From positions 1-35,955 of the IMG/VR virus record IMGVR_UViG_3300005290_000327: 35,955 nt of DNA; one strand, written 5' to 3'. Below are positions 6,593-29,450 of the stretch, piece after piece. Position 1 is the first letter of the stretch. Every line of letters begins with the position of its first letter. The position numbers and the translations under genes are program-made. The DNA is from a virus. The notes under the pieces were generated by a model that saw only the letters and a list, made by a program, of their open reading frames with translations, was not told the DNA's origin and did no database searches.

Positions 6593-6789
6593 GTACGGGA
6601 CACAAGTGGTATGTCGAACGCGCCGCCGCCGACCTGGCCGCGCTGCTCAGGGCCTCTCGCATCTATCTGGCTGCGACCCGCCCGCGCGTGTGCGGTGATT
6701 GCGGGCATATCTTCACTATTGCCAGCATGGCGAGCGGCCGTCGCTGCGCGCGGTGTGGGCTGAAGGAGCATACCGATGATCGCGTATGA
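6589..6789 (+). CDS. Small zinc-ribbon protein
   Basis: 66 residues from ATG 6589, coupled to the upstream gene through ATGA. An N-terminal helix (YVERAAADLAALLRASRIYL) is followed by CGDCGHIFTIASMASGRRCA then RC, a clear CxxC-x(14)-CxxC zinc ribbon. Such small ribbons usually contact nucleic acid or a protein partner. The specific role is unknown. The next microprotein starts inside its 3' end. Confidence 0.65.
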   Translation: MSTGHKWYVERAAADLAALLRASRIYLAATRPRVCGDCGHIFTIASMASGRRCARCGLKEHTDDRV

Positions 6790-6868
6790 AGTCCCGCCCG
6801 ACGACGGGCCGGGCGACGACTGCCCTGACCACGGCCCGTATGGGGATGATGAGTGTCCGAAGTGCTGA
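6776..6868 (+). CDS. 30-residue Cys/His microprotein
   Basis: ATG 6776 is preceded by GAAGGAG at seven-base spacing and opens a 30-codon frame ending TGA 6868, overlapping the preceding gene by 14 bases. The peptide is acidic and ends CPDHGPYGDDECPKC, a CxxH-x7-CxxC set that could hold one zinc ion. The strong ribosome site and the motif support it despite its size. A 7-bp hairpin (6868-6874/6881-6887) directly follows the stop, and 6888-6968 holds no other gene. Confidence 0.5.
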   Translation: MIAYEVPPDDGPGDDCPDHGPYGDDECPKC

Positions 6869-6968
6869 GCTGACCACGCCGTCAGCTTTGGGCCGTGTTT
6901 CGCCCGCCCGCTGCCGGCCCCGACCGCCGGCGCATAGATCTGTTCCACCGAGCGAGAAAGTCACGCCT

Positions 6969-7760
6969 ATGGCTCCATCACATCAATCAAGCGTCACCGT
7001 CGATCGGCTCTTTGCGCCGGCGCCGCACGGCCTGATCAACGACCCGCAGATCAGCTATCCGGCGTTCCGGCTCTGGTGTGTGTTGCACCGGCTGAGTTGG
7101 ATTAAAGAGCCGCCCGAAATGGATCGGCTGTGCGCAGAGATGCGCCAGCAGGATCGCACGCCCGATCGGCGCAGCGTCTACCGCTGGTTGAGCGAGCTGG
7201 AGTCGCGCGGCTGGCTACGCTGGCAGCGCACGCCGGGCAAGGCAAGTGTAAACCGTTTTCTTGTGTTGAGTGAACGGGCGCCTGTGACACAAGAGTCACA
7301 GGATGCAGAACCTGTGATCGTAGGATCACAACCTGTGACACCAGAGTCACAACCTGTGACACTACGATCACAGGAGGGGGCGATTCATCCGCGCGCAGAG
7401 CCGCCAGAAAAAGCGACTCAGAATCATGAGAATCATGAGATCGATGGTGATGATGGGCGCACCTTGGCGTTTCTCGAATCGGAGGGCATCGGCGCAGCGC
7501 AAGAGTTTGCACACCTCCCCTACGAACCGCTCCGACGTGACTATCAAAACCGTCGCGACGATGGGCAAGAAAAGGCCATCATCGTCAAAGCCTGGCGACG
7601 CAAGCCCCCCACGAAGGACTATCACTATGAACGATCCCGACCCGCCCAATCAAACGGGCATGCGCCCGATCGGCGCCCTCCTTCCGAGCGCATTAAAGAG
7701 CGTCCGGAACTTCCAGAGGGACTCAAGCTCAGCACATGGAAACCCGATCGCAGCGAGTGA
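6969..7760 (+). CDS. Replication initiator protein (lambda O-like position), HTH
   Basis: 263 residues from ATG 6969. Residues about 10-100 form a winged-helix-type domain: VTVDRLFAPAPHGLINDPQI, FRLWCVLHRLSWIKEPPEMD, then RRSVYRWLSELESRGWLRWQ, the recognition helix pattern of phage replication initiators. Residues 105-135 are a run of heptapeptides PVTxxSQ encoded by the iterons at 7281-7374. The rest is a charged linker and a basic tail. Initiator followed by a DnaC-like loader, with iterons inside the initiator gene, parallels lambda O-ori-P. The ribosome site is weak. The last 134 bases overlap the loader gene in another frame. Confidence 0.7.
   Translation: MAPSHQSSVTVDRLFAPAPHGLINDPQISYPAFRLWCVLHRLSWIKEPPEMDRLCAEMRQQDRTPDRRSVYRWLSELESRGWLRWQRTPGKASVNRFLVLSERAPVTQESQDAEPVIVGSQPVTPESQPVTLRSQEGAIHPRAEPPEKATQNHENHEIDGDDGRTLAFLESEGIGAAQEFAHLPYEPLRRDYQNRRDDGQEKAIIVKAWRRKPPTKDYHYERSRPAQSNGHAPDRRPPSERIKERPELPEGLKLSTWKPDRSE
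7281..7374. repeat. Four dyad iterons inside the initiator gene (candidate origin)
   Basis: Four 22-bp units begin at 7281, 7311, 7332 and 7353, each starting CCTGTGA and having an inverted partner (TCACAGG or TCACAAC) at its end. Units 1 and 4 have the most complete arms (CCTGTGA/TCACAGG). Units 2-4 are spaced exactly 21 bp, two helical turns, so they would face the same side of DNA. A stretch rich in ATCATGAGA follows at 7420-7456 and could be the unwinding element. The most natural reading is the phage replication origin bound by the protein it lies in. Confidence 0.75.
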
Positions 7761-13167: not shown

Positions 13168-14712
13168 ATGTCCACACAACCGATTGTACCACCAACACCC
13201 CCGCCCGAACGCCCGTTCGGCCCCGTGTGGCGCGTGTGCCTGGCCTGTGGCCTGACACTCACGATCGGCCTCATCGCCGCGCTGTGGCCGTTCCTGCAGG
13301 CGCTGGCGAGCGCGCTTGCGGCCTATCGCGGCCCTTTAGCTGTCGCGCTGCTGTTGTTCGCTGCGGCGCTGCTCATCGGCGTCGTGCGCGCGGTCTGGGC
13401 TTGGAGCTGGCGCATTGACGCCCACGCGCGCCAGGCGCGGGTCGTCAGGATGCAAAATGATCTGCCGATCTCGGTCGACGACGTGCATGCCGCCTTCGAG
13501 CAGCATGCCGCCTGGAGCTTGCACGATCACTACGCCGTAGAGCTCGCCGCGGCCCAGCGCCAGTTTCCACTGCTGACGAGTTATAACCAGCACCTGCATA
13601 ACCAGTATGCGCCCGCCCAGTTGGCCGCGCCAGCCGAGACGGTCACGACGGTCGCGCAGATCCCAACGTTCGCGCAGCTGCTCGACCGTGGCCAGATTGG
13701 GCCGGGCCGGCAGCTCATCCTCGGCTACAACGCCGCCACGGGGCAGCCGATCGTCGGCGCATGGAAGGATCTGTACTCGTGTGGCGTGGGGGCGCTCCAG
13801 GGCGCCGGCAAGACCTGGTTGTTAGCGTTTCTGCTCGGCCAGAGCGCAGCGGCCGGCGGGCGGCTGATCATCTGCGATCTGCACGCCGGCGACGATGAGA
13901 GCCTGGCGAACCGGATCGGGGCGCTCGCACCCGCCTTTATGTGCGATATCGCCAGCACGCCCAAGGAGATCGAAAGCGCGTTCGCCTTTGCCGATGACAA
14001 ACTGGAGAAGCGCAAAGGGAACACGGCGCGCTGGCCGATCGTGCTGGTTGCCGATGAGTGGACAAGCTTGCTGCGCACATCGGCCGGATCAGCCTTGCCC
14101 GCGCATATCCAAAATATCGCGGAGCAGGGCCGCAAGTTCAACGTGAATGGCATCCTCGCCGCGCAGGCCTGGACAAAGGCCGCCAGTAGCGATGTGCGCA
14201 ACCAGCTGACCAGCCACTATGTCCTGCGCCAGCGACCCGAGGAGGCGCGCTATCAGCTCGGGCTCAGAGCCGAGCAGCTGCCCGACGATATCCGCGCGCT
14301 GCCCGATGCGACCGGCTATCTCCTGAACGTACAGGGCGATCTCATCAAGGTGGCGATCCCCCTGATGACCGGCGCCGATCTGGCGCGCTGCGGCGAGCTG
14401 ATCCCCGGCCCGGCCGGATCGCCGCCCAAGTTCGGCTTTTTGGCTCCGACCGATCGGCTCCCGATCGCGCCGGCGGAACTCAAAAGGAACTCAGATGGAA
14501 CTCAAAAGGAACTCAGAATCAATCTGAGTTCCAGCGCAGCACAATCCGCCAAACCCGTACCGGCCGAGGCTGCGCGCGCGGCGGCGCTGTTTTTCGAAGG
14601 AAAAGAGATCGCGGACATTATTCGCGAACTGCGCGGCGAACTGACTGGCCGTGCGCGCCAGCAGGCCAGTCTCGAGATTCAACAACTGATCAGAGAGGCG
14701 CTCCAGCAATGA
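13168..14712 (+). CDS. Membrane-anchored FtsK/HerA-like DNA translocase
   Basis: 514 residues from ATG 13168, with AGAGGAG upstream. Two membrane segments span about 21-53 and 56-78. The motor domain has Walker A GALQGAGKT (208-216) and Walker B PIVLVADEW (290-298), followed by NIAEQGRKFNVNGILAAQAW, a pattern typical of FtsK/SpoIIIE/TraB-type hexameric pumps. The C-terminal 50 residues (ALFFEGKEIADIIRELRGEL...) look like a small HTH that could read DNA sites. The gene itself contains a phased 8-bp repeat array. Such pumps move dsDNA through membranes in cell division and in conjugation of actinobacterial elements. They are unusual in a siphophage early operon. Confidence 0.85.
   Translation: MSTQPIVPPTPPPERPFGPVWRVCLACGLTLTIGLIAALWPFLQALASALAAYRGPLAVALLLFAAALLIGVVRAVWAWSWRIDAHARQARVVRMQNDLPISVDDVHAAFEQHAAWSLHDHYAVELAAAQRQFPLLTSYNQHLHNQYAPAQLAAPAETVTTVAQIPTFAQLLDRGQIGPGRQLILGYNAATGQPIVGAWKDLYSCGVGALQGAGKTWLLAFLLGQSAAAGGRLIICDLHAGDDESLANRIGALAPAFMCDIASTPKEIESAFAFADDKLEKRKGNTARWPIVLVADEWTSLLRTSAGSALPAHIQNIAEQGRKFNVNGILAAQAWTKAASSDVRNQLTSHYVLRQRPEEARYQLGLRAEQLPDDIRALPDATGYLLNVQGDLIKVAIPLMTGADLARCGELIPGPAGSPPKFGFLAPTDRLPIAPAELKRNSDGTQKELRINLSSSAAQSAKPVPAEAARAAALFFEGKEIADIIRELRGELTGRARQQASLEIQQLIREALQQ
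14475..14532. repeat. Phased GGAACTCA array with inverted copy inside the translocase gene
   Basis: GGAACTCA occurs at 14475, 14486, 14497 and 14508, exactly every 11 bp, and the inverted TGAGTTCC at 14525-14532. The last direct copy and the inverted copy form a perfect 10-bp hairpin (GGAACTCAGA/TCTGAGTTCC, 5-nt loop). The array also reads as two 22-bp units. It encodes residues about 436-455, between the motor and the C-terminal HTH. Confidence 0.85.
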
Positions 14713-15443
14713 TCAACCGAACCACCATCCGCCTGTCCATCACGCGCGGCCAGCTCGCCATCGCCCGCATCCGCGCGTGGCTGGCGCAGCGCGATCCGCT
14801 CGCTGTGCTTGCCGCGCCCACGCTCCTGCTCGTCGCTATGGGCGCGCTCCTTCGCATCCTCCTGCTCCAGAGCGCGCCGCGGATGGCTGCCCAGCCCACG
14901 CCGCCGCTGCCGATCATTATGATCGCGACGGCGCCGGCCGTGGCGCCGCCCACAGCTGCACCAGCCGCACAGGTAGCAGCGGTGGCGCCGAACACGCTCC
15001 GCCGCGCCGTGGTGGCCTATGACGCACCAGCGGGCAGTGTGCTGGGCGCGATTGAGCAGGGCCGCGCCTACCAGGTGCTGGCGCGCTATGGCGCGGACTG
15101 GCTCCAGGCTGAGGTTGCAGGATCGGGGATTGTTTGGCTCAGGGCTGATCAGGTGCTCGACTTGCCCGCCGATCTGGCCAATTTACAGCCGACCGCCGCG
15201 CCGCAGATTGTCTACGAGGTGGTCAATCAGCCCGTCCAGGCTGCCCAGGAGGCCGCGCCAGCCGCCGCACCGGAGATCGAGGCCGTGCCCACGCCCGCGC
15301 CGCCCTCCCAGGTGCTGAGCGAGCGGGAGCGCAATATCCAGCAGCACTACGTGGAGATCCCGCCCCGCGCCCCGATGGAACAGGATAGCGTCACACAGGC
15401 ATGGGCGAGAGTGCAGTGGGCGGCCGAACATCCGCAGCCCTAG
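14709..15443 (+). CDS. Membrane-anchored SH3-like protein
   Basis: 244 residues from ATG 14709, coupled to the translocase by ATGA. One membrane segment lies near residues 31-54 (LAVLAAPTLLLVAMGALLRI). An Ala/Pro linker follows, then a bacterial SH3-like domain: AYDAPAGSVLGAIEQGRAYQ and YGADWLQAEVAGSGIVWLRA. The C-terminal third is Ala/Pro/Glu-rich and disordered. SH3b domains bind peptidoglycan or proteins outside the membrane. Being fused to the translocase operon, it may form part of an envelope complex with it. It ends TAG just before the terminator. Confidence 0.7.
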   Translation: MINRTTIRLSITRGQLAIARIRAWLAQRDPLAVLAAPTLLLVAMGALLRILLLQSAPRMAAQPTPPLPIIMIATAPAVAPPTAAPAAQVAAVAPNTLRRAVVAYDAPAGSVLGAIEQGRAYQVLARYGADWLQAEVAGSGIVWLRADQVLDLPADLANLQPTAAPQIVYEVVNQPVQAAQEAAPAAAPEIEAVPTPAPPSQVLSERERNIQQHYVEIPPRAPMEQDSVTQAWARVQWAAEHPQP

Positions 15444-28361: not shown

Positions 28362-28534
28362 GGCGTGATGCGTTCCCAATGGACAATCTTCCGGCCGTCC
28401 CGATACTCCCACGCGCCGACCTTCGCGCCGTGGATGGCGTCTTTCAGGCAGCGCGGCTGCCCAAAGGCATCTTGTGCGACCCGCCGCCCGTAGGCGCGAA
28501 TCCCAACGGCATACTCAGGAAGCAAACACGACAC
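28358..28534 (-). CDS. Small hypothetical protein in the glycan island
   Basis: 58 residues from GTG 28534, with GGAGG six bases upstream, overlapping the kinase gene by 20 bases and the isomerase by four (ATGA). The sequence (YAVGIRAYGRRVAQDAFGQP, then AWEYRDGRKIVHWERITP) is strand-rich and basic. A longer frame to ATG 28567 exists but has no ribosome site. No family is recognised. Confidence 0.55.
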   Translation of the reverse strand: MSCLLPEYAVGIRAYGRRVAQDAFGQPRCLKDAIHGAKVGAWEYRDGRKIVHWERITP

Positions 28535-29450
28535 GGCAGCCCTCCACGCCGACTCTGATCGGCACATGGCGCAGGCCGAGCGCCTGTGCGACCGCCTGAT
28601 GGCGCTCAGGGGGAGCCATCAGGAGCAAGAAGCCGCCGCCGCCCGCGCCGCACAACTTCCCACCCCAGGCGCCCGCCTGTTCGGCCACGGCAACCATTCT
28701 GCCGTAGACCTCCGCGACAAACTGCCGCTTGATCTGCCATGCGTCGCGCATAATGCCGCCGCATGCCTCCAACTCGCCGTCTCTGAGCAGCTGCGCGAAG
28801 CACTGCGCCAGCCATGCCAGCTCGCGCACATCGTCGCGATCCTGCCGCTGGCTGGCCAGCACGTGGCCAGCATCGCCGTTTCTCGCGAGGCCGGTATCCA
28901 GCAGCAGGCAGTGCGCCGACAAGGCGTCCAGGTCGCTTTCTATCGGATCGACACTCACGCCGGCGATGGTGAACGTCAGGAGGTTCAGGCCGCCATAGGC
29001 AGAGGTGTACTGATCCTGTAATCCAATGGGCTTTTTGCATTCGTCTATCTCGATGACGCCAGCCAATTTCGCGCAGGCGCTGGCATTCATCTTTTGTCCG
29101 ACATGCGCCGCAATAGCCGCGACCGCGCCGACCGTAAAGCTGCTGCTGCTGCCCAGGCCCGTGCCGCCGGGGATGTCGGCGATTGAGTGCAACTCGATCC
29201 CGCCGTCGAACGGAAACCAGCCTAGCGCATGCCGCATCAGCTCGTGCTGTAGCTCGCTCACGCTCCCTACGTTCTCTGTCAGAGAATACGCGGCCCGAAT
29301 GCTGCCGTCGTACTTCGGATTGACCGCGACATACACGTACTTGTCGATGGCGGCCGCCACGCACGCGCCCGGCTCTTCAGCGAAGAACCGGGGCCGGTCG
29401 CTGCCGCCGCCCACAAAGCTGATTCGGAGGGGTGTCTTGGTCACGATCAT
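28515..29450 (-). CDS. hddA: GHMP kinase, D-glycero-D-manno-heptose 7-phosphate kinase-like
   Basis: 311 residues from ATG 29450. GHMP motifs are clear: TKTPLRISFVGGGSD at the N-terminus, the ATP-binding loop GGTGLGSSSSFTVGAV, and CGAGGGGFLLLMAP near the end. The LRISFVGGGSD start and KPIGLQDQYTSAYGGLNLL block are characteristic of heptose 7-phosphate kinase HddA and its fucokinase-like relatives. With the GmhA-like isomerase, it would phosphorylate heptose 7-phosphate at C1, feeding a GDP-heptose type route. The nucleotidyltransferase (HddC) is not in the window. Confidence 0.85.
   Translation of the reverse strand: MIVTKTPLRISFVGGGSDRPRFFAEEPGACVAAAIDKYVYVAVNPKYDGSIRAAYSLTENVGSVSELQHELMRHALGWFPFDGGIELHSIADIPGGTGLGSSSSFTVGAVAAIAAHVGQKMNASACAKLAGVIEIDECKKPIGLQDQYTSAYGGLNLLTFTIAGVSVDPIESDLDALSAHCLLLDTGLARNGDAGHVLASQRQDRDDVRELAWLAQCFAQLLRDGELEACGGIMRDAWQIKRQFVAEVYGRMVAVAEQAGAWGGKLCGAGGGGFLLLMAPPERHQAVAQALGLRHVPIRVGVEGCRVVFAS

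Follow-up and report, generated by a model that had tools for sequence, protein, structure and literature searches.

A DNA motor gene of a probable Chloroflexota phage contains, within its own coding sequence, a repeat array that the motor probably recognizes

Why would the gene of a DNA-pumping motor contain helically phased repeats within its own coding sequence? We addressed this question in IMG/VR virus record IMGVR_UViG_3300005290_000327 (positions 1 to 35,955; hereafter the window, i.e., the whole 35,955-bp stretch analyzed). An earlier note, made from the sequence alone, reported four copies of an 8-bp word exactly 11 bp apart and a fifth, inverted copy forming a perfect 10-bp hairpin in the 3' part of an FtsK/TraB-like gene, just before its presumed HTH. 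By analogy with TraB of Streptomyces plasmids and AICEs, which has a C-terminal winged helix and recognizes 8-bp repeats at clt close to traB, the note proposed a self-encoded loading site for dsDNA translocation. We found that the repeats are exactly as the note described them. Its interpretation was partly supported: comparison strongly favors a DNA-level array read by the translocase that encodes it, whereas the winged helix and a sequence relation to Streptomyces TraB were not supported, binding remains inferred, and the window itself is a phage rather than an AICE.

The word GGAACTCA is present at 14475–14482, 14486–14493, 14497–14504, and 14508–14515 on the plus strand and at 14525–14532 on the minus strand, 17 bp after the fourth direct copy. 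These are the only five copies in the window, whereas dinucleotide shuffles gave a mean of 0.64 and a maximum of 3. GGAACTCAGA (14508–14517) and TCTGAGTTCC (14523–14532) pair perfectly over 10 bp around a 5-nt loop, forming a 25-bp dyad (14508–14532, plus strand), and the array is the strongest 11-bp-lag self-match in the whole window (28 of 33 positions). Because the pitch of 11 bp shifts the reading frame at each copy, the encoded peptide (AELKRNSDGTQKELRINLSS) is not repetitive; a protein repeat was rejected as the explanation, as neither 11 nor 17 is a multiple of three.

The host gene (13168–14712, plus strand) encodes a 514-aa FtsK/HerA-like protein. Its structural model, rather than a dedicated transmembrane predictor, shows two long N-terminal hydrophobic helices (residues 20–52 and 56–97), followed by a motor domain (approximately residues 166–412), a disordered linker (residues 416–461, pLDDT below 50; DNA at 14413–14550, plus strand), and a C-terminal HTH-like domain (residues 465–514; 14560–14709, plus strand). 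The 58-bp array falls entirely within the DNA of the linker. The Walker A region (GALQGAGKT; 13789–13815, plus strand) and the Walker B region (PIVLVADEW; 14035–14061, plus strand) contain, respectively, G and K residues and a DE pair that were invariant in the protein alignment (A3). In a Foldseek search, the motor fold matched FtsK motor structures first (6t8o, E = 2.7e-12), then EccC and TcpA, whereas Pfam assigned no family and gave only weak HerA/DUF87/EccC hits. The AF2 model of the C-terminal domain (mean pLDDT 96.6) contains three helices and no strands, and had no PDB match at E ≤ 0.001; on this model, we rejected a winged helix as the reader of the array.

The window carries a tape-measure gene among its tail genes, a tyrosine integrase, and an O-like replication initiator gene (6786–7760) followed by a DnaC-like loader gene, and is therefore a temperate tailed phage. 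Inside the O-like gene, at 7281–7374, CCTGTGA/TCACAGG repeats spaced by about 21 bp form a candidate lambda-like in-gene origin. The late genes include an int-alpA RNA (RF02996; 32664–32730, minus strand; 43.4 bits, above the gathering score) and a gene (28515–29450, minus strand) for a protein of an unknown phage family (phrog_34407), whose Caulobacter phage Cr30 relative is annotated as a heptose-7-phosphate kinase. Adjacent to the motor gene, in all five phage contigs, lies a gene for a membrane protein (14709–15443, plus strand in the window) that looks SH3-like by eye, without a Pfam hit.

We next asked whether the array is retained in homologues. A peptide-pattern scan of genome contigs (alignment A1) and searches of phage and plasmid collections returned no relatives, whereas three further distinct phage contigs carry the gene at 78, 71, and 58% identity, besides a 99% copy. 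Centering on Chloroflexia genomes through a 16S probe, followed by HMM searches of 158 Chloroflexia genomes and then of 400 genomes spread over the phylum, gave further members with the same C-terminal domain, 13 of which could be analyzed. These homologues were found in Chloroflexia and one other Chloroflexota class, which makes a Chloroflexota host of the phage likely; a search of the class of homologues G322 and G378 (G numbers denote homologues and their genomes or phages; L numbers denote loci) gave no new members. The C-terminal domain alone, sought in the same genomes, was found confidently only at the end of these motors.

All 17 distinct homologues with this C-terminal domain (four phages and 13 Chloroflexota genomes) have repeats in the linker, and 16 have exact 6-mer repeats at 11- or 12-bp pitch. 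The earlier note had named homologues lacking the repeats but conserving the peptide as grounds for refutation; the comparison came out the other way, as linker peptides diverge and the repeat architecture stays. The word, however, differs, most members having their own 8-bp motif: GGAACTCA in the window and G002, GGACGGCA in G003, AGTAGCCG in G004, GGTAGCCA in G036, GGAAGCCC/GGTAGCCC in G045, GGAAGTCA in G091, CGTAGCCG in G076, GGAAGTGG in G022, CGAAGGGG in G042, GGAAGGGG in G013, CGAAGCGG in G060, GTCAGCCA in G038, GACAGCGG in G068, and GGCCCGGT in G025. In its fullest form, the layout consists of two copies at 12 bp, a gap near 33 bp, three copies (in the common layout, three or four) in the opposite direction at 11/12-bp pitch, and one copy turned back after 17–19 bp. 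G022, with six exact GGAAGTGG copies, and G036, with six GGTAGCCA-type copies, show it completely. The window and G004 have four direct copies and the inverted one, and G003 has one, four, and one, whereas G038, G043, G060, G076, and G322 are less regular. The 17-bp inverted offset of the window recurs in G003, G004, G036, and G045. The number of copies is often six; a link to a hexameric motor is tempting but is only an idea.

Over the 17 non-redundant genes, exact 6-mers recurred at lag 11 in 12 genes (synonymous-shuffle mean 2.5, maximum 6), at lag 12 in 10, at lag 22 in 9, and inverted at offset 17 in 10 (maximum 7). Two hundred synonymous-codon shuffles of the same genes never reached these counts, and upstream DNA of the same genes showed 0 at lag 11. 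Lag-11 matches totaled 95, against a shuffle mean of 4.2 and maximum of 15, whereas 16 motor homologues with other C-terminal domains, used as a negative control, had 10, against a mean of 2.0 and maximum of 11. Little signal was thus seen in the control set, although its G239 genes (L175 and L176) carry CT-rich and GA-rich inverted repeats in the same linker position. A per-gene 7-mer score allowing one mismatch was weak and too noisy, and was replaced by the exact 6-mer spectra. Four viral loci found after the layout was defined (L229, L230, L231, and L236) together had 33 lag-11/12 matches against a null maximum of 18, although by number of genes (3 of 4) this small set is not significant by itself (P = 0.17). 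Codon conservation in the array between the window and G002 was only modestly unusual (13/14 versus 227/366, p = 0.013; 16 of 367 windows equal it).

These results bear on whether the repeats are mere chance or slippage in a low-complexity linker. The linker is disordered and tolerant, and G003 and G042 have near-perfect tandem units. However, in the window the 8-bp cores are exact while the 3-bp spacers differ, inverted copies sit at fixed offsets, synonymous shuffles and other regions of the same genes lack the pattern, and unrelated linker peptides keep the same layout; this reading is strongly disfavored. Action in the mRNA, as a hairpin or attenuator controlling expression, is also very unlikely. 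The hairpin is stable in the window (MFE −21.6, z −2.7) and the 17-bp inverted offset recurs in 10 of 17 genes, but the 11/12-bp pitch of several direct copies and the far inverted pair have no simple RNA reason, and G002 keeps four direct copies without the hairpin partner.

Which protein, then, reads the array? The nearest relative by C-terminal domain had the closer word in 12 of 16 genes and the nearest by ATPase in 2, with 2 ties (one-sided sign test calculated by hand, p = 0.0065). The Mantel correlation of word with C-terminal distance, given ATPase distance, was 0.23 (p = 0.013), whereas that with ATPase distance was negative (r = −0.05); motif phase was set by hand for some genes, and the signal weakened without G002 (partial r = 0.18, p = 0.047; plain p = 0.096). 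Phages G002 and G003 share 94% of the ATPase but only 50% of the C-terminus and differ in word, and G045 has an ATPase closest to G022, G068, and G013 but a C-terminus and word like G004, G036, and G076. L236 resembles G042 at the C-terminus and has the same word, CGAAGGGG, and L229 compared with G068 shows a concerted change across copies (GACAGCGG to GACAGCAC) with the 11-11-13 spacing kept. These facts favor the motor's own C-terminal domain as the reader. The linker and this domain are adjacent, and we cannot exclude that exchange or co-inheritance of one 3' module linked word and domain without recognition, although linkers whose peptides no longer resemble each other would then have no reason to keep the layout. 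Alternatively, a repressor, a partition protein, or a host factor could read the array, for example to regulate the operon, as arrays with inverted copies are also typical of operators and centromeres. We consider this unlikely: the motor gene is the only gene shared by all 18 loci compared, a host factor would not explain different words in phages with 84–94% identical ATPases, and the array is tied to homologues with this C-terminal domain.

Some homologues lie in 7–9.5-kb integrative elements. Two chromosomal members lie in elements bounded by long direct repeats starting in tRNA genes, of 81 bp in tRNA-Pro (G091, about 9.45 kb) and 47 bp in tRNA-Gly (G038, about 9.4 kb); these elements carry integrase, motor, and D5_N primase-helicase. 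Beside the latter gene in the G038 element, 11-bp-pitch repeats ACTTTTGATCT (L108:11928–11960) are possible replication iterons. G022 pairs integrase and motor with an HUH-type Rep within a possible 6.8-kb element bounded by a 19-bp direct repeat (L171:2–6812), and G060 has a serine recombinase next to the motor. G036 has a capsid gene nearby, so at least two contexts exist, phages and small integrative elements.

The G091, G038, and G022 elements have the gene set of actinomycete AICEs such as pSAM2, i.e., integrase, replication protein (D5_N primase-helicase or HUH Rep), and FtsK-like motor, with no T4SS or relaxase among the ORFs examined, which falls short of an exhaustive search. Their hosts, however, are Chloroflexota rather than Actinobacteria, and the window, with its tail genes, does not fit this set. 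Streptomyces TraB recognizes 8-bp repeats at clt through a C-terminal winged helix (PMC4170104, PMC5365140, PMC3583192). Similar to the TraB–clt systems of pSVH1, pIJ101, and pJV1 and TraA–clt of pWTY27, the present locus combines an FtsK-type motor, whose two long hydrophobic N-terminal helices may be a membrane anchor, a presumed C-terminal DNA-reading domain, and a cluster of short repeats with inverted copies whose words are element-specific (PMC3583192, PMC4170104). It differs in that the array lies wholly inside the motor's own gene, in the linker, at 11/12-bp pitch with a conserved layout, and in the predicted wingless three-helix domain. Ten Streptomyces traB genes examined have no such in-gene array, and the pWTY27 clt overlaps its traA by only 16 bp. 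A tblastn search with phage homologue P0004 in a plasmid collection that includes pIJ101 gave no match at E ≤ 0.01. We therefore regard the locus as a variant of the TraB–clt arrangement and not as a TraB system. Streptomyces plasmid spdB/DUF2637-type genes near traB contain in-gene repeats (L224:4324–4595, L223:3552–3673, and L225:4152–4276; CCGTGAGC seven times, CGAACACC, and GGGGGACA), which are possibly unrecognized clt sites.

Escherichia coli FtsK shares the motor fold and an 8-bp word read by a C-terminal domain, but KOPS are scattered and polar over the chromosome, whereas here all five copies lie in one 58-bp cluster; KOPS-like use was rejected on this ground. The lambda O gene likewise contains the binding sites of the protein it encodes (here the reader is only presumed), but O starts replication, whereas the present gene encodes an FtsK motor and the O-like gene of the window lies elsewhere. 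TcpA of pCW3 (Clostridium), an FtsK-like conjugation motor among the next-best fold groups, works with a T4SS-like system, no genes of which were seen in the ORFs examined.

Taken together, we interpret the array as a cis-acting loading site for the translocase encoded by the same gene, with a probability of roughly 0.68. In this view, the C-terminal domains of the presumably membrane-anchored motor would bind an 8-bp word repeated once per helical turn, often in about six copies in a fixed back-to-back layout, seating the motor on the DNA that carries the gene; the motor would then pump that double-stranded DNA, most likely across a septum or into a neighboring cell, as proposed for TraB–clt in Streptomyces. 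Placing the site in the linker next to the reading domain would keep motor and word linked when modules are exchanged. The analysis itself establishes the array, its conserved layout, its association with homologues bearing this C-terminal domain, the change of word with that domain, the FtsK fold, and the AICE-like gene sets, whereas binding by the domain, loading, and transfer as the purpose are inferred. That the array is a functional DNA site is very likely, and that the gene's own C-terminal domain reads it is likely, but transfer between cells as the purpose is about as likely as not. In the window the motor sits in a tailed phage, where transfer by TraB-like conduction is not an obvious need. 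Segregation or dimer resolution of the element or prophage inside the cell, with the same site and reader, is a less likely but possible purpose: the best fold match is chromosomal FtsK, helically phased direct repeats also resemble plasmid centromeres, and tailed phages have virions for transfer. Conversely, no partner partition gene is shared between the loci, and the gene set of integrase, replication protein, and motor without capsid genes matches AICEs, which transfer by such a motor (PMC3218068).

More speculatively, and rather unlikely on present evidence, temperate tailed phages of Chloroflexota, a phylum with filamentous members, and the small elements sharing the motor may carry a one-gene double-stranded DNA transfer system with an embedded docking site, letting prophage DNA spread between cells of a filament without virions, in parallel to TraB spreading in Streptomyces mycelium but with a different DNA-reading domain. 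The cis-acting site of AICEs is poorly known, none having been described for pSAM2 according to one paper (PMC9513070), so a clearly visible candidate site makes the loading question testable. If our reading is right, a motor and its address label are packed into one gene and the label can be read from sequence alone, which gives about twenty natural protein–site pairs with different words for working out how such motors choose their DNA, and points to TraB-like DNA spreading outside Actinobacteria, in phages as well as in small integrative elements.
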